Positions 8,965 to 32,649 of a DNA stretch of 64,000 bases are shown piece after piece (the first letter of the stretch is position 1; each line of letters starts with the position of its first letter). The stretch spans positions 1 through 64,000 of the forward strand of contig JANQMX010000002.1 in the NCBI GenBank assembly GCA_028279885.1, read 5' to 3'. The notes below the pieces were generated by a model. It was not told the origin of the DNA. It saw only the letters and a list, made by a program, of their open reading frames with translations, and made no database searches. The DNA comes from Rhodovibrionaceae bacterium. GTDB taxonomy: Bacteria; Pseudomonadota; Alphaproteobacteria; Kiloniellales; DSM-21159. Both the position numbers and the translations under genes were made by a program.

Positions 8965-10796
<1,832 letters not shown>

Positions 10797-10802
10797 ACGG
10801 CG

Positions 10803-12437
10803 ATGCAGCTCACCGTCTGGACATACGAGGGACCGCCGCACGTCGGCGCCATGCGCATCGCCACCGCGCTAGAGGATGTGCACTACGTGCTGCACGCACC
10901 CCAGGGCGATACCTACGCAGACCTGCTGTTCACGATGATCGAGCGCCGCGATAAGCGCCCGCCGGTGACCTACACCACCTTCCAGGCGCGCGACCTGGGT
11001 GGCGACACGGCAGAGCTGTTCAAGGATGCGGCGCGCGACGCGGTCGAGCGCTTCGCGCCCCAGGCCATCCTGGTTGGCGCCTCCTGCACCGGCGAGCTGA
11101 TCCAGGACGATCCGGCCGGGCTCGCCAAGGCGCTCGGCCTCTCGCTGCCGGTCATCCCGCTGGAGCTGCCCTCTTACAGCAAGAAAGAGAACTGGGGCGC
11201 CGCCGAGACCCTCTATCAACTGGTCCGCGGCCTCGCCGGTCCGCACGTGCCCAAGCCCGGCGAAGAGCGCCCGGCGCGTGACCCTGAGACGCGGCCCAAA
11301 TGCAACATCCTTGGCCCGACGGCGCTGGGCTTCCGCCACCGCGACGACGTGATCGAAGTGCGCAAGCTGCTCGAGTCCCTCGGCATCGACGTGCACGTGG
11401 TGGCGCCCATGGGTGCCACGGCAGCGGAGATCGCCCGCGTCGGCGAGGCGGACTTCAACGTCGTGCTCTATCCGGAGATCGGGCGCTCCACTGCAAGCTG
11501 GCTGAAGCGCATGTTCGGCCAGCCCTTCACGACAGTGGTGCCGATCGGCATCGGCGCAACCCGCGAGTTCATTCGCGAGGTTGCCGAGATCGCCGGCGTC
11601 GACCCGAGCGCAGCACTGGCGGGAGAGCCTTCGCGTCTGCCTTGGTGGTCGCGCTCGATCGACTCGACCTACCTGACCAACAAGCGCGTCTTTGTCTTCG
11701 GCGACGGCACCCACGCCATCGCCGCGGCCCGCGTCGCCCAGGAAGAGCTGGGCTTCCAGGTCGTCGGGCTCGGCTCCTACAGCCGCGAGATGGCGCGCGA
11801 GCTGCGCGCCGCCGCTGCCCTCTATGACGTCGAGCCTTTGATCACCGACGACTATCTGGAGGTCGAGGAGAAGATCGAGGAGCTGCAGCCGGAGCTGGTT
11901 CTCGGCACCCAGATGGAGCGCCATATCGCCAAGCGCCTGGGCGTCGGCTGTGCCGTTATCTCCGCCCCAGTCCACGTGCAGGACTATCCCGCCCGCTACG
12001 CCCCGCAGATGGGCTGGGAGGGCGCCAACGTCCTCTTCGACACCTGGGTGCATCCCCTGGTCATGGGCCTGGAAGAGCACCTCCTGGGTATGTTCCGCGA
12101 GGACTTCGAGTTCCACGACGAGGCCGGCGCCTCCCACCTCGGCCACGGGGCGAAAGGCACGACGCAAACAGCCGCCGAGGCGGAGGAAGACAGCGAGCCG
12201 GAGGCTCAGGCCGCACCCGAAGAGACGATCGAGACGCCCGCTGCGCCGCAGCCTGCCAGTGCACAATCCGCGGGGGCGCCGGCCTGGACCGACGAGGCCG
12301 AAACGGAGTTGCGCAAGATCCCCTTCTTCGTGCGGGGCAAGGCACGGCGCAACACGGAGAAATACGCCGCCCAGTTGGGCTTGACCGCGATCACACTAGA
12401 GACGCTCTACGATGCCAAAGCGCACTTCGGGAAATAG
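10803..12437 (+). CDS. bchB: Light-independent protochlorophyllide reductase subunit B
   Basis: B subunit of dark-operative protochlorophyllide reductase, 544 residues, forming the substrate pocket with BchN. It opens with [20 protein letters not shown] and contains [12 protein letters not shown] with the cluster-ligand cysteine. The C-terminal domain, from about residue 498 ([20 protein letters not shown]), is the BchB-specific helical lid found in PF08369-type tails. Between about residues 449 and 494 lies a low-complexity Ala/Glu/Pro linker. The last 26 bases overlap the start of bchH in another frame. Confidence 0.96.
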
Positions 12438-15400
12438 CGCGACGAGCAAGACCCCCGTCCGGGTGGTCCTGATCACCCTGGACCGCCATTTGGCCAGCGC
12501 CACCGCGCGCGCCACGGCGGCGCTAAAGCGCGACATCCCGGGGTTGGAGCTTGCTTTCCATGCCGCGACCGACTGGGCCGGTAATCCGGAGTCGCTGGCG
12601 CGCTGCAAGGCGGACATCGCCAAGGGCGACATCGTCATCGCCTGCATGCTGTTCGTCGAGGAGCATATCCAGGCCGTCCTGCCCGACCTGCAGGCCCGGC
12701 GCGATGACTGCGACGCCATGGTCGGCTGCGTCTCGGCCGGCGAGGTCATCCGCCTCACCAAGCTCGGCCGCTTCGCCATGGACGGCTCGGGGCAGGGCGG
12801 CATGCTCTCCCTGCTCAAGCGCCTGCGCGGCGGCAACAAGAAGAAGCCCGGCATGAGCGCCGGCGCGCAGCAGGTGGCGATGCTGCGGCGCCTGCCGAAG
12901 ATCCTGCGCTTCATCCCCGGCACGGCTCAGGACGTGCGCGCCTACTTCCTGACCATGCAGTATTGGCTGGCCGGCTCGGAGCATAACCTGGCCAACCTGG
13001 TGCGCTTCCTGATCGACCGCTATGCCGCCGGCCCGCGTGCTGCGCTGCACGGTGCTTTGACGGTCCAGCCACCGCTCGATTACCCGGATCTTGGCCTCTA
13101 TCACCCGCGCCTCGGCAAGAGCATCGTCGAGCGGGTGAGCAAGCTGCCGAGGCCGAAAGGGAAGAGCCAGGGACGGGTCGGCTTGCTGCTCATGCGCTCC
13201 TACGTGCTGGCCGGCGACACTGGTCACTACGACGGCGTGATCGCCGCCATGGAGGCCCGCGGCTTGCAAGTCGTGCCTGCCTTCGCCGTCGGTCTCGACT
13301 GCCGCCCTGCCATCGAAGAGTACTTCATCGAGGACGGGCGTCCCGTCGTCGACAGCGTCGTTTCGCTGACCGGTTTCTCCCTGGTCGGCGGGCCGGCCTA
13401 CAACGATGCCAAGGCGGCCGAGGAGATGCTGGCCGCTCTCGACGTGCCCTACATCGCGGCCCAGGCGGTGGAGTTTCAGAGCCTGGAGCAGTGGGGCCGC
13501 TCGACCCGCGGCCTGATGCCCGTCGAGTCGACCATCCAGATCGCGCTGCCGGAGCTGGACGGCGCAGTGGGCGCTACCGTGTTCGGTGGCCGCTCGGACG
13601 GGTCGGGCCAGCCCTGTGAAGGCTGCGAGCGCCACTGCAAGTTCGATGCGGACGGCGCGCAGGACATGCATGCCTGTCTGGACCGGGCCGATGCGCTGGC
13701 ATCGCGGATCTCCAAGCTGGTCGCCCTGCGCCGTGCCGAGCGGGCCGAGCGCAAGGTCGGCATCGTGCTTTTCAACTTCCCACCCAACAGCGGCGCCACC
13801 GGCACGGCCGCCTTCCTCGATGTCTTCGCCTCGCTCTACGCGACCCTGCGGGCGATGAAGGCAGAGGGCTACGACGTCGACCTGCCGGAGAGCATCGAGG
13901 CCCTCAGGGCCGCGCTGCTGGAAGGCAATGCCGAGCGTCACGGCGCCGATGCCAATGTGGCCGCCCGCATATCGGTCGAAGACCATGTACGCCGCGAGCC
14001 CTGGCTGAAAGACATCGAGCAGGCTTGGGGCGCCGCACCTGGCCGGCATCTGACCGACGGTCGCGATCTCTTCGTGCTCGGCGCTCAGCTCGGCAAGGTC
14101 TTCGTCGGCGTGCAGCCGAGCTTCGGCTACGAAGGCGATCCCATGCGCCTGCTGTTCGAGCAGGGCCTGGCGCCGACCCACGCCTTCAGCGCTTTCTATC
14201 GCTGGCTGCGCGAGGACTTCGGCGCCCATGCGGTGCTCCACTTCGGCACCCATGGCGCACTAGAGTTCATGCCGGGCAAGCAGGCCGGGGTGTCTGGCGC
14301 CTGCTGGCCGGACCGGCTGATCGGCGACCTGCCGAACTTCTATCTCTATGCCGCCAACAACCCATCCGAGGGCACCATCGCCAAGCGCCGTTCCGGCGCG
14401 ACGACGATCACCTACATGGCGCCGCCGGTGGCCCACGCCGGCCTCTATCGCGGCCTCAGCGATCTGCGCGCCTCGATCGACCGCTGGCGCAGCCTGCCGC
14501 CTGCCGCCGAGCAGGAGCGGGCCGATCTGGAGCCGCTCATTCAGGCGCAGGCGGCCGAGGTCGAGCTCGCCGCGCCCGAGCCGTTGTGGAACGGCGACGC
14601 CGGCGAGCGCATCGCCACCCTCAACGGCGAGCTGCAGGAAATCGAGCAGTCGCTGATTCCCCACGGTCTGCACGTGGTCGGCACGCCGCCCAGCGCCGAG
14701 GAGCGTGCGGAGCTGCTCTTCGCCATGGCCGAACTGGAGTCGGTCTCGGCCCCCTCAATGAACGCCGTTGAAGCCATCGTCGCTGGCAAGACGCCCGGTG
14801 AGGCCGCGAAACTGGACGGACACGGTGACGACGATCGACTCATCGCCATCCTCACCGGTTTGGCGGATGCCAACGAGAAGCTGCAAGGCGAGCACGAGCT
14901 GGAAGGCATCATGCACGCCCTTGACGGCGGCTACATCCGCCCGGTGCCCGGCGGCGATCTGCTGCGCACGCCGGAGACTTTGCCGACCGGGCGCAACCTG
15001 CATGGTTTCGACCCCTTCCGCATTCCCAGCGCTTTCGCGGTCGCCGACGGCGCCCGCCAGACCCAGCGCCTGCTCGACCGCCATCAGGCCGAGAGCGGCG
15101 ACCTGCCAAGCTCTGTGGCTTTCGTGCTCTGGGGGACGGACAACCTGAAGAGCGAGGGCGGGCCCATCGGACAGGTCCTGGCGCTGATCGGGGCCAAGCC
15201 GCGCTTCGACGGCTACGGCCGTCTCTGCGGCGCCGAGCTGATCTCCCTCGAAGAGCTGGGCCGGCCGCGCATCGACGTGGTGGTCACTCTCTCCGGCATC
15301 TTCCGCGATCTGCTGCCGCTGCAGACCAAGCTCTTGGCCGAGGCCTGCTATCTCGCGGCCAGTGCTGACGAACCGCTCGAGATGAACTTCCTGCGCAAGC

Positions 15401-16209
15401 ACGCTCTGGCCTACCAGGAGACGCACGGTTGCGATCTGGAAACGGCATCGCTGCGCGTCTTCTCCAACGCCGACGGCGCCTACGGGGCGAACGTCAACCA
15501 GCTGATCGAGAGCGGCGCCTGGAGCGACGAGGGCGAGCTGGCCGACACTTACACCCGGCGCAAGTGTTTCGCCTACGGCCGCAGCGGCCGCCCGGTGAAG
15601 CAGGCGGAGCTGCTGCAGTCGATGCTGAGCGATGTCTCCATGGCCTATCAGAACCTGGAGTCGATCGAGGTCGGCATCACCACCGTCGATCACTACTTCG
15701 ACACGCTGGGCGGCATCAGCCAGGCGGTGCAGACTGCGCGCGGCGAGGTCATCCCGGTCTACATCGGCGATCAGACCCGCAGCGAAGGCACCGTGCGCAC
15801 CCTGAGCGAACAGGTCAGCCTGGAGACCCGCACCCGCATCCTCAATCCGCGCTGGTACGACGGCATGCTGCGCCACGGCTACGAGGGCGTGCGCCAGATC
15901 GAAGCCACCGTCACCAACACCATGGGATGGTCGGCCACCACCGGCCAGGTGCAGCCCTGGGTCTACAGCCAGGTCAGCGAGACCTTCGTGCTCGACCCCG
16001 AAATGCGCCAGCGCCTGGCGGAGCTCAATCCCAAGGCCCTGGCCAAGGTCGCCAACCGTCTGTTGGAGGCCCACGACCGCAACTATTGGACGCCTGACGA
16101 AACGACCCTGGATGCCTTGCGGCAAGCCGGGGAGGAGCTGGAGGACCGCCTCGAAGGGCTGCCGCAAAGCCAGACCTCCTCGCAAGTCACCCAAGGCGTT
16201 CCCGCATAA
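12412..16209 (+). CDS. bchH: Magnesium chelatase subunit H
   Basis: Large porphyrin-binding subunit of Mg-chelatase, which with BchI and BchD inserts Mg2+ into protoporphyrin IX, the first committed step of the pathway. The 1265-residue product has the expected length and CobN/BchH-family sequence throughout, including FHYGTHG-like [15 protein letters not shown] (about residues 610-624) and the conserved C-terminal segment [17 protein letters not shown]. Start chosen at the ATG lying within the end of bchB (26-base overlap); the next in-frame codons begin the conserved region (VRVVLITLD) 16 residues later. bchI and bchD are not in the window. Confidence 0.96.
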
Positions 16210-17130: not shown

Positions 17131-17831
17131 TGCCAACCGCAAGCTTCGCCCAGCGCCGCAGTCAGCTGGAGGCCTACTTCGATCGCACCGCGGTCGATGC
17201 CTGGGCACGCCTGACCTCCGATGCGCCGGTCAACAAGATCCGCGAAACGGTGCGCCAGGGCCGCGACCGCATGCGGGCGAAGCTGCTGTCCTACCTTCCG
17301 CATGACTTGAGCGGCGCGCGTCTGTTGGACGCCGGCTGCGGCACCGGCCTCTTGGCGGTGGAGGCGGCGCGGCGCGGCGCTTCGGTCACCGCCGTCGATC
17401 TCTCGCCCAGCCTCATTTCCTTGGCAGCCGAACGGCGGCCCGAGGATGTGGACCCGGCCAAGCTCGACTTCCAGGTGGGCGACATGCTGGAGACCGGCGA
17501 AGGCCGCTTCGACTTCGTCGTCGCCATGGACTCGCTGATTCACTATACGGCCGGTGACATGGTTGTGGCGCTCGGCCGTCTGGCGGATCGCACCGATCAT
17601 TCGCTCGTCTTCACCTTCGCGCCGCGCACCCCGGCGCTCACCGCTATGCACACCGTCGGTCAGCTCTTCCCGCGCGGCAATCGCTCGCCGGCCATCGAGC
17701 CGGTCGGCCCCGGCGTGCTGCATCGGCGAATCGCCGGCGCGCAGGCGCTCTCCGATTGGCATATCGGCCGCAGCGAACGGATCGTCAGCGGCTTCTACAC
17801 CTCACAGGCGCAGGAACTGACTCGCGGATGA
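17130..17831 (+). CDS. bchM: Magnesium-protoporphyrin IX methyltransferase
   Basis: SAM-dependent O-methyltransferase that converts Mg-protoporphyrin IX to its monomethyl ester, the substrate of AcsF further down the operon. The 233-residue product has the class I motif LLDAGCGTGLLAVEAARRG (motif I at about residue 66) and FDFVVAMDSLIHY (motif II/III). The ATG at 17130 overlaps the bchL stop by one base (TGATG). Its own stop overlaps the lhaA start as ATGA. Confidence 0.95.
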
Positions 17832-19282
17832 GAGGTTTGAGCGACAGGGTTGCGCGTAACTGGATGCGGCTCGGCCCGCGGTACCTGCCGTTTGCCGATG
17901 CCGCCAGCGACGAGTTGCCGCTCGGCCGCTTGTTGCGCCTGTCGCTTTTCCAGGTTTCCGTCGGAATGGCCCTGGTGCTGCTGACCGGGACGCTCAACCG
18001 GGTGATGATCGTCGAGCTCGACGTACCGGCGGGCCTGGTCGCAACCATGGTCGCCCTTCCCGTGCTCTTCGCGCCCTTCCGCGCGCTGATCGGCTTCCGT
18101 TCGGACACCCACCGCTCGGCTCTCGGCTGGCGGCGCGTCCCCTTCATCTGGTTCGGCACTCTGCTGCAGTTCGGCGGCCTGGCGATCATGCCCTTCGCCT
18201 TGCTGGTGCTCTCCGCCGATCAGCTGCACGGCCCTGAAGAGGCGCGCTACATCGGCGCCGCCCTGGCCTTCCTGCTGGTCGGCGCCGGCCTGCACACCAC
18301 GCAGACCGCCGGCTTGGCGTTGGCCACGGATTTGGCCCCGGCCGAGTCGCGCCCGCGGGTCGTGGCGCTGCTCTATGTCATGCTGCTGCTCGGCATGGTC
18401 GTCAGCGCCTTCATCTTCGGCCTGCTGCTCGGCGACTTCGACCCGGGCCGGCTCATCCAGATCATTCAGGCAGCGGCGGTGGTCACCGTCCTGCTCAACA
18501 TCGTCGCCCTGTGGAAGCAGGAAGTGCGGGCGCCCGAGCGCACGCGCAAGGATCTGCCACGGCCGAGCTTTGCCGACGCCTGGCGCGACATCCAAGACGG
18601 TGGCCGCACCAAGCGCTTGCTCGTCGCCGTCTTCCTGGGCACGGCCGGCTTCTGCATGCAGGACATCCTGCTCGAGCCCTATGGCGGCGAGGTCTTGGGC
18701 CTCAACGTCGGCGCCACCACCTTGCTGACCGCGATCCTGGCGGGTGGTTCGCTCGCCGGCTTCGCCTTCGCCGCCCGGGCTCTGACGCGCGGCTTCGATC
18801 CTTTCCGCTTGGCAGCACTCGGCAGCCTGGTCGGCATCTTCGCCTTCGCCGCGGTGATCTTCGCGGCACCGCTTGAGTCCGCCGGCCTGTTCCGCTCCGG
18901 CACGGCGATGATCGGCTTCGGCGGCGGCCTGCTGGCGGTCGGCACCCTGACCGCCGCCATGGCCATCGCGGACGGCGACACCTCCGGCAACGGCTTGGCG
19001 CTGGGCGCCTGGGGCGCGGTGCAGGCGACGGCAGCGGGTGCCGGCATCGCGCTTGGCGGCCTGCTGCGCGACCTGGTGAGTGGCCTGGCGGCTGCGGGTC
19101 ACCTCGGCCCCGGGCTGACGTCACCGGATATCGGTTACTCGGTGGTCTACCACTTGGAGATTCTTTTGCTTTTCGCGGCGCTGGTCGCGCTCGGCCCGCT
19201 GGTGCGCCGCCGCGCATCGGCCGGTTGGCAAGCCAGTCGACAAGGCTCGGGCCGCTTCGGCCTAGCCGACCTGCCCGGATAG
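17828..19282 (+). CDS. lhaA: Light-harvesting 1 assembly protein LhaA (BCD-family MFS)
   Basis: Second BCD-family protein of the window (484 residues, about 12 transmembrane helices). It contains the hallmark TGTLNRVMIVELDVPAG near residue 60 and GWRRVPFIW a little further on. LhaA-type proteins, encoded between bchM and puhA in purple bacteria, are needed for LH1 assembly, probably by delivering bacteriochlorophyll. The ATG overlaps the bchM stop. After the last helix there is a short basic/Ser-Gly tail. Identification rests on family and on the fixed position bchM-lhaA-puhA. Confidence 0.92.
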   Translation: MRGLSDRVARNWMRLGPRYLPFADAASDELPLGRLLRLSLFQVSVGMALVLLTGTLNRVMIVELDVPAGLVATMVALPVLFAPFRALIGFRSDTHRSALGWRRVPFIWFGTLLQFGGLAIMPFALLVLSADQLHGPEEARYIGAALAFLLVGAGLHTTQTAGLALATDLAPAESRPRVVALLYVMLLLGMVVSAFIFGLLLGDFDPGRLIQIIQAAAVVTVLLNIVALWKQEVRAPERTRKDLPRPSFADAWRDIQDGGRTKRLLVAVFLGTAGFCMQDILLEPYGGEVLGLNVGATTLLTAILAGGSLAGFAFAARALTRGFDPFRLAALGSLVGIFAFAAVIFAAPLESAGLFRSGTAMIGFGGGLLAVGTLTAAMAIADGDTSGNGLALGAWGAVQATAAGAGIALGGLLRDLVSGLAAAGHLGPGLTSPDIGYSVVYHLEILLLFAALVALGPLVRRRASAGWQASRQGSGRFGLADLPG

Positions 19283-19325: not shown

Positions 19326-20276
19326 ATGGAAACCGGCGCGATCACCAACGAAATCGATGTGGCGCAACTGGTTCTCTACGCCTTCTGGGTATTCTTTGCC
19401 GGCCTGATTTTCTACCTGCGCATGGAGGACAGGCGGGAAGGCTATCCTCTGGAATCCGAAGTGACCGGCGAGCCGATCGACCCGGGCGCGATCTACGGCC
19501 CTTCGTTGAAGGTCTTCAAACTGCCGGACGGTTCGACGCTCGACACCATGCGGCCGGACACGCGGCCGCTCGCGCTCAAGCCGATGGAGGTCTTCTCCGG
19601 TGGGGCCTCCGAGCCGACCGGCGACCCGATGATCGACGGGGTCGGCGCGGCGGCCTGGGTGGAACGCCGCGACGTGGTCGACCGGACCGGCGAGGGCGAG
19701 CCGCGCATCGTGCCCATGCGTCTGCTTCCGGATTACTCGGTTGCCGAACAGGACATCGACCCGCGCGGTCTTCCCGTCATCGCCTGCGACGGCAAAGTCG
19801 CCGCAACAGTGAAGGACATCTGGCTCGACCGCGGCGAGTGCTTCATTCGCTACCTCGAGCTCGAACTTCCGCAAGAGAAGCAAGCGGCGCCGAGCCCGGC
19901 ACCGGCCGTTGCTGAAGCCCCGACAGCGCAAGCGCCTGTGGGTGACGCGCCGACGGGAGAGGTGGCGCCGATGGGAGAGTCAGCCCCGATGGGTGGGGAT
20001 GCGCCGGCAGCGCCAGCCCCAACAGCGCCAGCCCCTCAGCCGGCTCCGGTGGTTCAGGCTCCAACGGGCGCGCTGCTGATGCCGATGACCATGGTGCGCC
20101 TGTCATCTCGGCCCGCGCAGGTGAAGACGGGCTCGATCCGCAGCGATCAGTTCGCCGACGTGCCGCGCACCAAGAGTCTCGACCAGATCACCCTGCTCGA
20201 GGAAGAGAAGGTCATGGCCTACTTCACCGGCGGCTATCTCTATGCCGAGCCCGAGCGCCAGGAGCCCTTGATCTAA
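19326..20276 (+). CDS. puhA: Reaction centre H subunit with an unusual Ala/Pro-rich insertion
   Basis: H subunit of the reaction centre, capping the cytoplasmic face of L/M and guiding protons to QB. One N-terminal transmembrane helix (about residues 12-31) is followed by the PRC-barrel cytoplasmic domain, with GLPVIACDGKVAATVKDIW and the C-terminal block QFADVPRTKSLDQITLLEEEK. The product is 316 residues against about 255-260 usual. The excess is a low-complexity Ala/Pro/Gly segment, about residues 183-248, inserted between the strand IRYLELEL and the strand LLMPMTMVRL. It has loose APxG repeats. Start has a ggaggttcag Shine-Dalgarno. It begins 43 bases after lhaA. Confidence 0.96.
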   Translation: METGAITNEIDVAQLVLYAFWVFFAGLIFYLRMEDRREGYPLESEVTGEPIDPGAIYGPSLKVFKLPDGSTLDTMRPDTRPLALKPMEVFSGGASEPTGDPMIDGVGAAAWVERRDVVDRTGEGEPRIVPMRLLPDYSVAEQDIDPRGLPVIACDGKVAATVKDIWLDRGECFIRYLELELPQEKQAAPSPAPAVAEAPTAQAPVGDAPTGEVAPMGESAPMGGDAPAAPAPTAPAPQPAPVVQAPTGALLMPMTMVRLSSRPAQVKTGSIRSDQFADVPRTKSLDQITLLEEEKVMAYFTGGYLYAEPERQEPLI

Positions 20277-20321: not shown

Positions 20322-21026
20322 ATGTGCGAGATCGAAGTCGAGCAAATCCCCGGGCTCCCGGGCAAACTCCCCGAGGGAGAGCGGCTGCTCTGGCAGGGCA
20401 GGCCGTCGTGGTGGGCCTTGGCGCGCCGCTGCTTCAAGGTCCGGGCCATTGCCATCTACTTCGCCATCTTCGCGGTCTGGTGGACGGTATCGGCCTTGTC
20501 CGATGGCGTGGGCTGGGGACAGGCGCTGCTGGACGGACTGGCCGTCGTTCCAGTCGCCGCCCTGGCGATCGCGGTGGTCGCCGGTCTCGCCTGGCTGACG
20601 GCACACAACTCGATCTACAGCATCACCAGCAAGCGCGTCGTCATCCGCACCGGCATTGCCTTGCCCATGACGTTCAATGTGCCGTTCAGCCGGATCGCTT
20701 CCGCCAACATGAAGGTCGAGGCCAACAAGAGCGGCGACATCGTCCTGGCGCTGAGCGGCCGCGACCGAATTGCCTATGCCCATCTCTGGCCGCACGTGCG
20801 TCCCTGGTACCTCAAGGACGTGCAGCCCATGCTGCGCGGCCTGCCGAACGTGCAGGAGGTCGGCGCTTTGCTCTCGAACGCGCTGGCCGGGGCCTCGGCC
20901 CAGACCGCGGAGCAGGCTGAAAGCGTCACGGCGGAGCCGGAGCTCTTGGACAAGCGGGGCAAGGAGCGGCCCTGGCAAGGCGAGCCGCGTCCTGCCGGCG
21001 CCGTGCCCCTGGCCGCCGCCGAGTAG
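20322..21026 (+). CDS. puhB: Photosynthetic complex assembly protein PuhB
   Basis: Membrane protein needed for efficient reaction-centre assembly. The 234-residue product has an N-terminal soluble strand rich in GLPGKLPEGERLLWQG, two to three hydrophobic helices (about 45-65 and 75-95), then a PH-like domain beginning NSIYSITSKRVVIRTGIALP and ending in a charged Ala/Glu-rich tail. The start ATG at 20322 follows ttttggagag. The order puhA-puhB-puhC is standard in purple bacteria. Confidence 0.93.
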   Translation: MCEIEVEQIPGLPGKLPEGERLLWQGRPSWWALARRCFKVRAIAIYFAIFAVWWTVSALSDGVGWGQALLDGLAVVPVAALAIAVVAGLAWLTAHNSIYSITSKRVVIRTGIALPMTFNVPFSRIASANMKVEANKSGDIVLALSGRDRIAYAHLWPHVRPWYLKDVQPMLRGLPNVQEVGALLSNALAGASAQTAEQAESVTAEPELLDKRGKERPWQGEPRPAGAVPLAAAE

Positions 21027-21059
21027 CGCCGCAGCGTCGCCCTGATGGGAGAGTCCCGG

Positions 21060-21536
21060 ATGACCGAGAAGATCTACCACAGCAACCCCTTTCCCAAGGC
21101 GGTGCTTTGGGGTGCCGGCGTGCTGCTCGCCCTCAGCTTGGTCGCCGTGGCCTTCGGCCGTTTCACCGGCATCGGCACGGTGATGAACCCGCAGGCCAAG
21201 CCGCGCGTGGTCCACAGCCTCCATTTCGACGACCGCGCCGACGGGGCCGTGGTGATCACCGATGCGGAAACGCAGCAAGTGGTTCTGGAGCTTGAGCCGG
21301 GAACCAACGGTTTCGCCCGCGGCGTCATGCGGGGCATGGCGCGGGGCCGTAAGCTCGAGGGGCTGGGCAACGAAACGCCGTTCCAGCTGGTCAGCTGGAG
21401 CGACGGGCGCCTGACACTGTCGGACCCGGCGACCGGCCACGTCGTCGAGATGAACGCCTTTGGTGAGACCCAACTGGAGAGCTTTGCGGCGATCTTGAAC
21501 GCCGCCTCCGCCAAGCAGGAGAGCGTAACGCAATGA
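21060..21536 (+). CDS. puhC: Photosynthetic complex assembly protein PuhC
   Basis: PuhC, 158 residues, one N-terminal transmembrane helix (about residues 13-35) and a periplasmic domain; required for optimal RC-LH1 formation. Family traits visible are the N-terminal NPFPKAVLWGAG and the GFARGVMRGMARGRKLEG segment. ATG 21060 is preferred over 21045 because the gggaga Shine-Dalgarno lies between them. The stop overlaps the next start as ATGA. Confidence 0.9.
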   Translation: MTEKIYHSNPFPKAVLWGAGVLLALSLVAVAFGRFTGIGTVMNPQAKPRVVHSLHFDDRADGAVVITDAETQQVVLELEPGTNGFARGVMRGMARGRKLEGLGNETPFQLVSWSDGRLTLSDPATGHVVEMNAFGETQLESFAAILNAASAKQESVTQ

Positions 21537-27138: not shown

Positions 27139-27774
27139 TCAGAACTCGACGCCTGCCTGGGCTTTGACGCCGTCGCGGAAGGGATGCTTCAGCAGGGTCA
27201 TCTCGGTCGCCAGGTCAGCTGCCTCGATCAGCTTGTCGGCGGCGTTGCGGCCGGTAAGCACCACGTGGCAGTCCTCGGGCTTCTCGGTCTCAAGGAAGGC
27301 CAGCACCTCGTCGAGATCGAGATAGCCGTAGCGCAGGGCGATGTTGACCTCGTCGAGCAGCACCATGCGGATGGCGGGATCGCGGATTAGCTCCTTCGCC
27401 TTCTCCCAGCCGGCCTGGGCCATCTCCATGTCGCGAGCCTTGTCCTGGGTCACCCAGGTGAAGCCTTCGCCCATGGTATGGAAGGCGCAGAGGTCCGAGA
27501 AGTGCTCGGCGATCAGGGCGCGCTCGCCGGTCTCCATGCCGCCCTTGATGAACTGCACCACGGCGCAGGGCATGCCGTGGGCAATGCAGCGGAAGATCAT
27601 GCCGAAGGCGGCCGAGCTTTTGCCCTTGCCCTTGCCCGTGTGGACGATGATCAGGCCGCGCTCCTCGGTCTTGCCGGCCATGATCTTGTCGCGGGCGCGG
27701 GCCTTCTTGGCCATCTTGGCGGCGTGGCGTTCCTGCTCCTCGGCGTCGACGGCCGGGACGTCATTCTCGCTCAT
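27139..27774 (-). CDS. cobO: Cob(I)yrinic acid a,c-diamide adenosyltransferase
   Basis: Transfers the 5'-deoxyadenosyl group from ATP to the cobalt of corrinoids (CobO/BtuR/CobA type). The 211-residue product has the P-loop [15 protein letters not shown] (about 44-58), KGGMETGE, and [14 protein letters not shown] Lys/Arg-rich N-terminal helix precedes the fold. Start ATG 27774 overlaps the cobN stop (ATGA), which decides it over an upstream extension. Confidence 0.95.
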
Positions 27775-30700
27775 GCCTTCTCTCCTTTCAGCTCTGCAAT
27801 CAGGCCCTGCGCGGTGTTGGAGCGCGGCTGCCAAAGGCCGCGCCGTACCGCTTCGTCCAGGCGGGCCGCGATCTCCTTCAGGGCCGCGGGGTTCGCTTCT
27901 TCCAGGAAGGCGCGCGTGTCATCATCCGCAAGATAGGCCTGGTGGACGAGATCGAAATGGTGATCCTGCACCGCCTGGGTGGTGGCTGCAAAGGCAAAGA
28001 GGTAGTCCACCGTCGCCGCCATCTCGAAGGCGCCCTTGTAGCCGTGGCGCTTCACGCCGGCGATCCATTTGGGATTGACCACCCGCGACCGCACGACCCG
28101 CGCCACCTCTTCGGTCAAGGTGCGGACGACCGGCCGCTCCGGGCGCGCATGGTCGTTGTGGTAGATCGTCGGCGCGCGGCCGCTCAGGCTTTCCACCGCT
28201 GCCGCCATGCCGCCTTCGAACTGATAGTAGTCGTCGCTGTCCAGCAGGTCGTGCTCGCGATTGTCCTGGTTCTGGACCACGGCCTCGACCTGGGTCAGGC
28301 GCTTTTCCAGCAAGTCGCGGGCGACAGCGCCCTCAGCCGCCTGGCCGTAGGCATAGCCGCCCCACTCCAGGAAGGCCTCCCCGAGATCGGCGCGGCTTTC
28401 CCAGACGCCGCTGTCGATCAGCGCTTGCAACCCGGCTCCGTAAGCGCCGGGCTTGGAGCCGAAGACGCGGAAGCCGGCGCGCAGGGCGGCATCGGCCACA
28501 CCCTCGGCTTCCAGCCGTCGCGCTTCCGCCCGGTAGCGCGCGGCGGCCGGGTTGTCGGCTTCCGGCTCGTCCAGTTCCATGACGGCGCGAGCGGCGCTGT
28601 CGATCAGGTCGATCTGGCCTGGGAAGGCGTCGCGGAAGAAGCCGGAGATGCGCAGGGTGACGTCGACCCGCGGCCGCCCGAGCACCGACAGCGGCAGGAT
28701 CTCGAAGCCGGTGACCCGCCGCGAGCCTTCGTCCCAGCTCGGGCGCACGCCCATCAGCGCCAAGGCCTGTGCGAGATCGTCGCCGCCGGTGCGCATATTG
28801 GCGGTGCCCCAGGCCGTCAGCGCCATCGCCTTGGGCCAGTCGCCGTGGTCCTGAACGTGACGCTCGATCAAGCGGCTGGCCGACTTCCAGCCCAAGGCCC
28901 AGGCCGTCGGCGTCGGCAGCGCCCGGTTGTCGACCGAGAAGAAGTTGCGCCCGGTCGGCAGCACGTCCGGCCGGCCGCGCGTCGGCGCGCCGGAGGGGCC
29001 GGGCGCGATGAAGCGCCCGTCGAGCCCGGCCAATAAGCCGGCCAGCTCCCGCTCGCCGCAGGCGCGCAGGGCCGGGCGCAATGTGCTGTCCATGCGCTCC
29101 AGGACGGCGCGGGTGGCGGTCCAGTCTTCAGCCGGCTGCCAGGTCCCGGCGATCAGTTGGCCGGCGAGCAGTTCCAGCCGCTCGACGCTGTCGCCCTTGT
29201 TGCGCCAAGGGTCCTCCGACTGCGCCTGCAGCGCTTCGGGGCGCGGCCCCTGCCAGGCTTCCGACATGACGCAGTCGAGCGGGTCGAAGTCCTCGGACGC
29301 CAGCTCCAGGTCGCGCGCCAGGGCGCGGATGAGGGAGGCGTCACCGCCCTCGTCCCGCCCGCGCGGCAGCCGGGCGAGCGCGGCCAGCAGGTCGCACTCC
29401 AGCCGGCCCTCGGGCGCGGCCCCGAAGATGTGCAGACCGTCGCGGATCTGGCTTTCCTTCAGCTCGCAGAGGAAGTCGTCGAGCTTGCGCAGGCGGCTGT
29501 CCGCATCGTCCGCGCTGTCGATGCCGGCATCGCGGTCCAGGCCGCTGACCTCGGTCAGGCTGAGGATCTCCTTGCGCAGCAGTTCCAGCCGGCGCGGGTC
29601 GACGCCGGCCGCGTCGTAGTACTCGTCGACCAGAGCCTCCAGATCGCGCAGCGGGCCGTAGGTTTCCGCGCGGGTCAGCGGCGGCGTCAGATGATCGACA
29701 ATGGCCGCCTGCGACCGCCGCTTGGCCTGCGTGCCTTCGCCGGGGTCGTTGACGATGAAGGGGTAGAGGTGCGGCAGAGGGCCGAAGATCGCCTCGGGCA
29801 GGCACTCGCCCGAAAGTGCGACCGCCTTGCCCGGCAGCCATTCGAGATTGCCGTGCTTGCCGAGATGCACCAGGGCCTGGGCGCCAAAGGTCTCGCGCAG
29901 CCAGGTGTAGAAGGCCAGGTAGTGGTGCGGCGGCGGCAGGTCGGGACTGTGGTAGCTCTGCATGGGGTCGAGCTGATAGCCGCGGGCCGGCTGTACCCCG
30001 ACGACCACGTTGCCGAAGCGGTGCAGCGAGAGGGCGAAGGCTTCGCCGTCTAGAAAGGGGTCGTCTTCCGGTGGACCCCAGCGGGACTCGATGGTGTCGC
30101 GCACGCTTTCAGGCAGTCGGGCAAATGCCTCGCGATAGTCGGCGAGCGGCAAGCGCTCGCCGCCCTCGCGCTCGGCCCGGTCGGCCAGCCAGTTGGTCGG
30201 CCCGGCGGTGAGGATCTGCATCAGTGCGGCGCCGTCGGCAGGCGCGTTCTCGATCCCATAGCCGGCTTCGCCCAGGGCGGCGAGCACGCGGGCGCAGCTT
30301 TCCGGCGTGTCGAGGCCGACTCCGTTGGCGAGACGCCCGTCCTTGTTGGGATAGTTGGCGAGGATGAGCCCGATGCGGCGTTCGGCTGCCGGCGTGCGCG
30401 CCAGTTCCGCCCAGTTGGCCGCCAGCTTGGCGACGAACTGCGCACGCTCCTCCTGCGCCCGGTGGCGCGCCACGGGGAACTGGGTGGTCTCGTCGAAGTA
30501 GGCCTCGTCCTTGAAGGCCACCGCGCGCGCCAGGATGCGCCCGTCGACCTCGGGCAGGGAGACGTTCATGGCGATGTCGCGCGGCGAAAGCCCGCGGTCG
30601 CCTTCAGCCCAGGCCTCTTCGCTGCCGCCGGAGAAGACGACCTGGAACACCGGCACGCCCGGCGCGTCGAGCACGGTCGGCTGGCGCTCCTCGCGCCAGT

Positions 30701-31529
30701 CCTCCGCCTGGGCCGAGCCGACCGCGAAGCTGGTGGCGTTCAAGACCACGTCGGGCGCTGCGTCGGCGAAGATCTGCGTCAGGGTCGCGGCCGAGAGCGA
30801 GTCCTTCAGGGAGGCGACGAAGACAGGCAGGGGGTTCAAGCCTTCGGCCGTCAGGGCGGCGGCGAGGCGGTCGATCACCTCGGCTCCGGCGCCTTGCAAG
30901 AGAGCCCGATAGAACACCAGGGCGGCGGTCGGGGCGCCCGGTGTCCAATGCGCCTGAAGGGAAGTGATGTCGCCCGGTCCCTCGCCTGGTAGGTAGGTCC
31001 CGGCGCGCAGCAGCGGCACGGCCCGCGCCGGCGGTGGCGCGCCATCCAGCAGATGCGCGGTGAAGCGCAGCAGGTTGGCGGCGTTGGCGGCACCGCCCTC
31101 GACGAAGTAGCTCCAGAGCGTCTGCTGTGTCTCGTCGGGCAGGCTCGAGGCGCGCGCCAGGGCCTCGTCCGGCTTGTCATCACCGGGCAGCGCGACGAAG
31201 GGCACGCCGGCCTCGGCCAGGCGCAGGGCGCACTGCTCGAGACCGTAGGGCCAATAGGCTTCGCCGCCGAGCAGCCGGGCGATCACCAGGCGCGAGCGGG
31301 TCAGAGTCTTGTCGAGATAGAGATCGACCGAGAAGGGGTGCTGCAGCCAGGCGAGCCGGGCCAGCCGCAGGGAGGGTACCGCATCGCCCAGGCGCTGTTT
31401 GGCGCTGGCCAGCGCCGCCAACTCCATGTCGTTGGCCGAGAGAACGACCACATCGGCGGGCGACTGCTGTGGGTCGACCGGCTCCGTGCCGTCGCTGATC
31501 TCACCCGCCTGCGCCTGAAGCAGATGCAT
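27771..31529 (-). CDS. cobN: Aerobic cobaltochelatase subunit CobN
   Basis: Large corrin-binding subunit of the ATP-dependent aerobic cobalt chelatase, which with CobS and CobT inserts Co2+ into hydrogenobyrinic acid a,c-diamide. The product is about 1252 residues and related to BchH in this window. Conserved stretches include LVHLGKHGNLEWLPGKAVALS and VRTLTEEVARVVRSRVVNPKW. Start ATG 31529 lies 16 bases after the cobW stop; the frame stays open another 22 codons upstream, but that part would overlap the end of cobW. cobS and cobT are not in the window. Confidence 0.95.
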   Translation of the reverse strand: MHLLQAQAGEISDGTEPVDPQQSPADVVVLSANDMELAALASAKQRLGDAVPSLRLARLAWLQHPFSVDLYLDKTLTRSRLVIARLLGGEAYWPYGLEQCALRLAEAGVPFVALPGDDKPDEALARASSLPDETQQTLWSYFVEGGAANAANLLRFTAHLLDGAPPPARAVPLLRAGTYLPGEGPGDITSLQAHWTPGAPTAALVFYRALLQGAGAEVIDRLAAALTAEGLNPLPVFVASLKDSLSAATLTQIFADAAPDVVLNATSFAVGSAQAEDWREERQPTVLDAPGVPVFQVVFSGGSEEAWAEGDRGLSPRDIAMNVSLPEVDGRILARAVAFKDEAYFDETTQFPVARHRAQEERAQFVAKLAANWAELARTPAAERRIGLILANYPNKDGRLANGVGLDTPESCARVLAALGEAGYGIENAPADGAALMQILTAGPTNWLADRAEREGGERLPLADYREAFARLPESVRDTIESRWGPPEDDPFLDGEAFALSLHRFGNVVVGVQPARGYQLDPMQSYHSPDLPPPHHYLAFYTWLRETFGAQALVHLGKHGNLEWLPGKAVALSGECLPEAIFGPLPHLYPFIVNDPGEGTQAKRRSQAAIVDHLTPPLTRAETYGPLRDLEALVDEYYDAAGVDPRRLELLRKEILSLTEVSGLDRDAGIDSADDADSRLRKLDDFLCELKESQIRDGLHIFGAAPEGRLECDLLAALARLPRGRDEGGDASLIRALARDLELASEDFDPLDCVMSEAWQGPRPEALQAQSEDPWRNKGDSVERLELLAGQLIAGTWQPAEDWTATRAVLERMDSTLRPALRACGERELAGLLAGLDGRFIAPGPSGAPTRGRPDVLPTGRNFFSVDNRALPTPTAWALGWKSASRLIERHVQDHGDWPKAMALTAWGTANMRTGGDDLAQALALMGVRPSWDEGSRRVTGFEILPLSVLGRPRVDVTLRISGFFRDAFPGQIDLIDSAARAVMELDEPEADNPAAARYRAEARRLEAEGVADAALRAGFRVFGSKPGAYGAGLQALIDSGVWESRADLGEAFLEWGGYAYGQAAEGAVARDLLEKRLTQVEAVVQNQDNREHDLLDSDDYYQFEGGMAAAVESLSGRAPTIYHNDHARPERPVVRTLTEEVARVVRSRVVNPKWIAGVKRHGYKGAFEMAATVDYLFAFAATTQAVQDHHFDLVHQAYLADDDTRAFLEEANPAALKEIAARLDEAVRRGLWQPRSNTAQGLIAELKGEKA

Positions 31530-31545
31530 CGGTCTCTGGCCAGCT

Positions 31546-32649
31546 CTACTCCGCGGCGGCTTGTCGGGGCATGTAGCCGCCGAGTGCCGCGGCAATGCTC
31601 TCCCGGTCGAGCCCGGCGTGGCCGATGGCGACCAGCGCGCTCCGCCTCTCTTCCTCGGGCCGGAAGGGCCGGTCGAAGTAGGTCGAAACCCGCGGGCCCA
31701 CCGCTTGGACCACCAGGCGCATGGGCTTGCCCGTCACCGCGGCGAAGCCTTTCACCCGGAGCAGACCGTGCGCGGCGATCGCCTGCTGGACTCGTTCGGC
31801 GATGGCCTCGGGCGAGGCGGCCTCCGGCAGCTCGACGATGAAGCTCTCGAACGCGTCGTGCCCGTGATCATGATCATGCTCGTGGTCGTGATCCTCGTCG
31901 TCATGATTATGGTCATGATCGTGGCGATGATGGACCTCGACCCGCGCGTCCATGTCATCTTCCGCGCCCATGCTGCGGCCCAGGAGCACATCCATGGGGG
32001 CAGCGCCATGGGCGGCCGAGACCACCGAGACGCCGTCTCGTGCCCGGCTCTGCAGATCGCCGGTCAGCCTCTCCGCGGTGTCTTCGCCGAGCAGGTCGGC
32101 CTTGTTGAGCAGCACGAGATCGGCGCAGGCGAGCTGGTCCTCGAAGAGCTGGGAGAGCGGCGTGTCGTGGTCCAGGTTCTCATCCTCGGCGCGCTGGCGC
32201 GCCACTGCCGCCTCGTCAGCGGCAAAGTGGCCCGCGGCGACGGCTGCGCCGTCGACCACCGTCACCACGCCGTCGACGGTGACCTGGGCGCGGATGTCCG
32301 GCCAGGCGAAGGCGCGAACCAGCGGCTGCGGCAGGGCCAGGCCCGAGGTTTCGATGACGATGTGGTCGGGCGGGACCTCCCGCTCCAAGAGCTTGGTCAG
32401 TGCCGGCAGGAAATCCTCTGCCACCGTACAGCAGATGCAGCCGTTGGGCAGCTCCACCACGTCATCGTCGGCGCAATCCTCGAAGCCGCAGCCCTGGACG
32501 ATGCCGCCGTCGACGCCGAGGTCGCCGAATTCGTTGATGATCAGGGCGATGCGCCGTCCCTCGGCGTTGGCCATCAGGTGCCGGATGAGGGTGGTCTTGC
32601 CGGCGCCGAGGAAGCCGGTGATCACGGTGGCAGGGATTTTGCCGCGCAT
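31546..32649 (-). CDS. cobW: CobW: G3E GTPase, cobalt metallochaperone for B12 synthesis
   Basis: G3E-family GTPase thought to deliver cobalt to CobNST. The 367-residue product has the P-loop TGFLGAGKTT (about 11-20), the metal motif GCICCTV (about 70-76), NKADLL for guanine recognition, and a His/Asp tract at about residues 240-264 that likely binds metal. The C-terminal CobW_C domain follows. ATG 32649 has a GAGGAGG Shine-Dalgarno. The frame is open further upstream through the riboswitch, which is rejected as coding. It is the first gene of the riboswitch-controlled operon. Confidence 0.94.
   Translation of the reverse strand: MRGKIPATVITGFLGAGKTTLIRHLMANAEGRRIALIINEFGDLGVDGGIVQGCGFEDCADDDVVELPNGCICCTVAEDFLPALTKLLEREVPPDHIVIETSGLALPQPLVRAFAWPDIRAQVTVDGVVTVVDGAAVAAGHFAADEAAVARQRAEDENLDHDTPLSQLFEDQLACADLVLLNKADLLGEDTAERLTGDLQSRARDGVSVVSAAHGAAPMDVLLGRSMGAEDDMDARVEVHHRHDHDHNHDDEDHDHEHDHDHGHDAFESFIVELPEAASPEAIAERVQQAIAAHGLLRVKGFAAVTGKPMRLVVQAVGPRVSTYFDRPFRPEEERRSALVAIGHAGLDRESIAAALGGYMPRQAAAE

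Follow-up and report, generated by a model that had tools for sequence, protein, structure and literature searches.

A long, predicted disordered Ala/Pro-rich loop in one hairpin of a photosynthetic reaction-centre H subunit, and similar loops in other lineages

The reaction centre ranks among the best-studied membrane complexes; its subunit H is conserved, and the architecture of the cytoplasmic domain of H is usually taken as fixed. The window analysed here, i.e. the whole stretch of 64 000 nucleotides, contains a puhA gene whose product carries a long segment rich in Ala and Pro within that domain. The locus thus raises the question of whether this segment is genuine, how it arose and what, if anything, it does in the reaction centre.

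The protein is otherwise an H subunit by sequence, predicted fold and gene context. TIGR01150, the NCBIfam equivalog model for puhA, scores it at 311.7 bits, above the curated cut-off of 200, and both PF03967 (PRCH) and PF05239 (PRC-barrel) are matched; the genome (G000) has a single PuhA copy. The match to TIGR01150 is split by the insert, breaking off after residue 186 and restarting near residue 247. In an AlphaFold2 model, for which the input was an alignment of 44 sequences, the N-terminal transmembrane helix (residues 12-37) and the barrel strands are present, and comparison of the model with solved H chains gives Z values of about 22-23 despite the insert. Residues D168, E171 and R175 align with residues 170, 173 and 177 of R. 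sphaeroides H (the numbering offset of 2 comes from a phmmer alignment in which query residues 9-182 correspond to chain residues 9-184), which we take to be residues of the Q_B proton path. Since the three are kept, the conserved chemistry appears untouched.

The insert lies in one PRC-barrel hairpin, at about residues 182-249 (Table 1). The initial annotation had placed it at 19872-20069 (residues 183-248), which is right to within a few residues, and had described it as a real in-frame insertion between two cytoplasmic strands with conserved flanks. This description holds: the frame is intact on both sides, columns invariant among the 44 sequences are kept on either flank, and most H subunits lack the segment. 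The reported richness in Ala and Pro is likewise borne out (A+P 55%); F, W, Y, I and L are absent, there are no bulky hydrophobic residues beyond a few V and M, and the net charge is -5. AlphaFold2 assigns residues 191-250 a pLDDT of about 46-66, compared with about 90-97 in the adjoining barrel, and the insert is predicted to be intrinsically disordered. At the DNA level, GC3 is 0.62 in the insert versus 0.83-0.90 in the remainder of puhA, and the same departure is seen at fourfold sites (30/49 in the insert versus 84/94 in the rest of the gene, P = 1.4e-4); the low value suggests that this part of the gene is younger or under less constraint. The loose APxG repeats that had been noted are weakly substantiated: Tandem Repeats Finder detects one imperfect 18-bp unit (Table 1), but a 6-residue periodicity across the whole insert does not differ significantly from that of shuffled sequences (P = 0.086). 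The region has no Rfam match that would indicate a structured RNA. Derivation of the insert from another gene of the same genome was considered and rejected, no second copy being found elsewhere in that genome at either the DNA or the protein level.

Table 1. Features in and around puhA, in coordinates of the window
Feature	Coordinates	Strand	Evidence or remark
PucC/LhaA-type (BCD family) transporter gene, upstream neighbour of puhA	17756..19282	+	PF03209 E 1.8e-145
puhA, photosynthetic reaction centre subunit H, 316 aa	19326..20276	+	ATG-start ORF; TIGR01150 E 3.9e-93, PF03967 E 1.4e-43, PF05239 E 9.5e-7
D168, E171 and R175, Q_B proton path positions, retained	19827..19850	+	D168 and E171 invariant, R175 nearly invariant
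Beta strand aa 173-180 directly before the insert (IRYLELEL region)	19842..19865	+	DSSP on AlphaFold2 model; Y176 and E178 nearly invariant
Predicted disordered insert rich in Ala and Pro, aa 182-247	19869..20066	+	Absent from nearest relatives; pLDDT about 46-66; A+P 55%
Imperfect 18-bp tandem repeat, 2.4 copies, within the insert; encodes APTGEV/APMGES/APMGGD-like units	19950..19993	+	Tandem Repeats Finder, 80% matches, score 53
Beta strand aa 250-253 directly after the insert (LLMP); the C-terminal segment of H comes next	20073..20084	+	DSSP on model; P253 invariant in 44 sequences
puhB assembly gene, downstream neighbour of puhA	20322..21026	+	NF040894 E 1.2e-65
puhC assembly gene, downstream neighbour of puhA	21045..21536	+	TIGR03054 E 1e-46

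How unusual such a loop is was judged from 142 distinct PuhA sequences, extracted from their loci and then aligned. The span from Y176 to S273 counts 98 residues in the window PuhA, compared with a median of 36 (5-95% range 33-41) in this set; similar insertions are therefore not a property of most PuhA proteins, and small differences in hairpin length, of a few residues, occur among all PuhA. The equivalent span is 35, 42 and 43 residues long in the three nearest relatives (G002, G007 and G011), which belong to the same family and have PuhA proteins about 60% identical to the window's. Set against these, the excess amounts to 55-63 residues, so that the extra length announced by the initial annotation is real, but its size, given there as about 66 residues, was somewhat overestimated. 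A PuhA above the cut-off is found in 15 of the 61 genomes of the order (G000-G060), and the match is split by an insert in that of the window only. Among 385 genomes sampled from the class, G207 is the one other case in which PuhA is split in this manner. A search with the window protein (tblastn) returned ten plasmid-borne puhA genes, several of which give a single unbroken alignment that stops short of the insert, and no PuhA relatives were found in viral contigs. One candidate for a further case, in locus L147 (G204), was discarded: its span is 56 residues, but the extra residues follow the LTPM strand instead of lying in the hairpin. This PuhA, with about 20 additional residues in its C-terminal part, is a different length variant. 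As to PuhA itself, its patchy occurrence in the order suggests frequent loss or transfer of phototrophy; within the window's genus, the only other species examined, with a genome 88% complete, has no PuhA.

The cluster of photosynthesis genes around puhA is colinear with that of G002, G007 and G011, and comparison of the neighbouring genes with those of the same three genomes revealed no internal insert of comparable size. The possibility that the operon is generally prone to insertions was rejected on this ground. Some details of the surroundings deserve mention. The contig of the window starts inside pufM (8-841), while the start of pufM, pufL and genes resembling LH1 pufAB are found at the end of another contig of the same genome (C41, locus L208, 1-1010); in the genome, the puf region therefore probably adjoins the puh region. 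No Ala/Pro-rich additions are seen in PufL or the LH1 polypeptides, which look normal. A large ORF at 27774-31733 on the minus strand, whose product shares about 35% identity with BchH of the relatives, is probably a CobN-type chelatase subunit, the true bchH being at 12400-16206.

The short turn that the initial annotation attributed to known H subunits is indeed the rule; there are, however, exceptions in two lineages. The best full-length match to the window PuhA among PDB sequences is chain H of 9m8m (E 1.4e-71, residues 1-314), an entry labelled in the structure library as the LH1-RC of Rhodothalassium salexigens, a purple bacterium whose complex was solved by cryo-EM. This chain has an insert of 59 residues (A+P 58%) between the same two PRC-barrel strands. 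Rhodothalassium belongs to a different order and its insert has a sequence of its own, with a net charge of +2 versus -5 in the window; outside the insert, identity between it and the window PuhA is no higher than that to PuhA proteins devoid of insert. Its sequence comprises 324 residues, of which 268 are present in the structure library; the 56 absent residues are apparently those of the insert, the two lengths being nearly the same. The open-access literature yielded no paper that deals with the 9m8m structure or with an insert in PuhA, and the passages located in the Rhodothalassium genome paper name puhA and describe no insert (PMC11762602). The second exception is a second alphaproteobacterial genus, represented by G207 and G808 (puhA at 10630-11538 of locus L196 in G207, with its counterpart at L213 in G808). 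Here an Ala-rich insert of 45 residues, without large hydrophobic residues, occupies the same hairpin. It has far fewer prolines than the window's insert, is more acidic (net charge -8) and does not align with it above chance; it is conserved between the two species, with a low dN/dS.

Considering these observations together, we lean towards the following reading. The window PuhA would be an ordinary H subunit in which one PRC-barrel hairpin has grown into a disordered, Ala/Pro-rich loop of ~60 residues. A small in-frame repeat expansion probably contributed part of this growth. The hairpin would be a permissive site, at which similar and apparently unrelated loops have appeared in at least two other lineages, and the loop would serve as a flexible spacer in the cytoplasm, without disturbing the chemistry of the reaction centre. 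We infer the translation of the loop in the window, its retention in the protein and its orientation. That such a loop can be accommodated is made plausible by an engineered case: YFP fused to the C-terminus of H in R. sphaeroides supports photosynthetic growth (PMC5512671), which indicates that H can bear extra bulk on its cytoplasmic face.

The alternative that survives best, and that we consider possible if rather unlikely, is a neutral expansion of low-complexity sequence: a tolerant surface hairpin would have been lengthened by slippage, the gene being GC-rich, and the product would be without role, merely harmless. The imperfect tandem repeat, the restriction of the insert to one species of the order and the small differences in hairpin length among all PuhA proteins agree with this account, as does the codon usage of the insert, which departs from that of the rest of puhA and has a GC3 befitting a young and weakly constrained segment. 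The G207/G808 insert speaks against it. Its length is identical in the two species over a dS of about 0.2, and amino-acid changes are as rare in it as in the flanks: there are 2 non-synonymous and 8 synonymous changes in the insert (dN 0.021, dS 0.242), and similar values are obtained for the flanks (dN 0.018, dS 0.195). The binomial probability under neutrality is 0.001 without transition bias and 0.012 on the harsher assumption that only 60% of changes would be non-synonymous, a test that concerns the G207/G808 insert, not the window's, and that rests on ten changes. From these sequences, at least one such loop appears to be under constraint at the protein level, with purifying selection as strong as on its flanks. 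The selection in question may do no more than maintain the solubility and disorder of the loop, without any benefit being preserved. Nor would pure drift be expected to favour loops of like composition at one site in each of three lineages, although tolerance alone could yield that pattern. A bolder version of the selective view, in which H has repeatedly acquired, under selection, a disordered Ala/Pro-rich arm adjoining the strand with the Q_B proton-path residues, and in which this arm fulfils a physiological role (such as spacing or organising RC-LH1, or modulating access at the cytoplasmic face), seems to us doubtful.

Another possibility is that there was one ancient insert, either inherited in common or transferred with Rhodothalassium and/or G207, and lost in the other relatives. 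The three inserts share their site and their composition (A+P 53-58%, almost no large hydrophobic residues), and those of the window and Rhodothalassium align slightly better than dipeptide-preserving shuffles (P 0.016-0.044). The alignments between window and G207, and between G207 and Rhodothalassium, are at chance level, so that beyond this slight similarity the inserts are alike in composition only. A tree of 95 sequences, built with the inserts removed, groups the window PuhA with its insert-free relatives of the same family (support 100/98) and places 9m8m_H and G207 elsewhere, scattering the three; a smaller tree agrees. The AU test, on the other hand, rejects neither the joining of the window with 9m8m_H (p = 0.144) nor its joining with G207 (p = 0.069). 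On the strength of the trees and alignments, separate gains of the three inserts are favoured, and we regard a common origin as improbable.

The initial annotation had also proposed that the segment could serve as a spacer or docking arm. The first half of this proposal fits the predicted disorder; the second fares much worse. A sequence-specific arm for a cytoplasmic or membrane partner (an assembly factor, LH1 or another reaction centre) would be permitted by the length and surface position of the loop, and linear motifs can occur in disordered loops. But the insert offers no aromatic residue and, save the few V and M, no bulky hydrophobic one; the three inserts have no sequence in common beyond their Ala/Pro composition, and even the sign of their charge differs; moreover, the relatives possess the same neighbouring assembly genes and no insert. 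A common site and composition and the lack of hydrophobic residues, combined with the absence of a shared motif or charge sign, make a physical role or mere tolerance likelier than specific docking, to which we would give very little credence. A sequencing or assembly artefact, to be feared with GC-rich low-complexity DNA in a draft genome of 111 contigs, is hardly credible, as the initial annotation had assumed, for a segment that is unique in the genome, that is free of stops in the reading frame over nearly 200 bases (stops being present in frame +2 and in two reverse frames), and that has analogues in three other genomes or structures.

If the permissive-hairpin reading is correct, this hairpin, which has taken up 45-66 disordered residues in several lineages, is a naturally permissive site next to the Q_B proton path and would be useful for engineering fusions. 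It also raises a testable question, namely why such loops are kept, and implies that solved H structures may conceal unmodelled loops.

Compared with known systems, the canonical H subunits (Blastochloris viridis, 1prc/3g7f; Rhodobacter sphaeroides; Rhodospirillum rubrum) have the same transmembrane helix, PRC-barrel and conserved residues as the window protein, but a short hairpin at the site of the insert and a total length of about 240-260 residues. The H subunit of Gemmatimonas phototrophica (7o0u) likewise departs from the standard architecture, in its case by being split in two, Ht and Hc (PMC10214105); the division lies near the start of the cytoplasmic domain, whereas in the window H a loop is inserted inside the barrel. 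The window PuhA is thus an uncommon form of a well-known protein, for which at least one structural precedent has been published, and long Ala/Pro-rich inserts in this hairpin of H appear, from the sequences compared here, to be rare but recurrent, a precedent in both sequence and structure being already at hand in Rhodothalassium salexigens.
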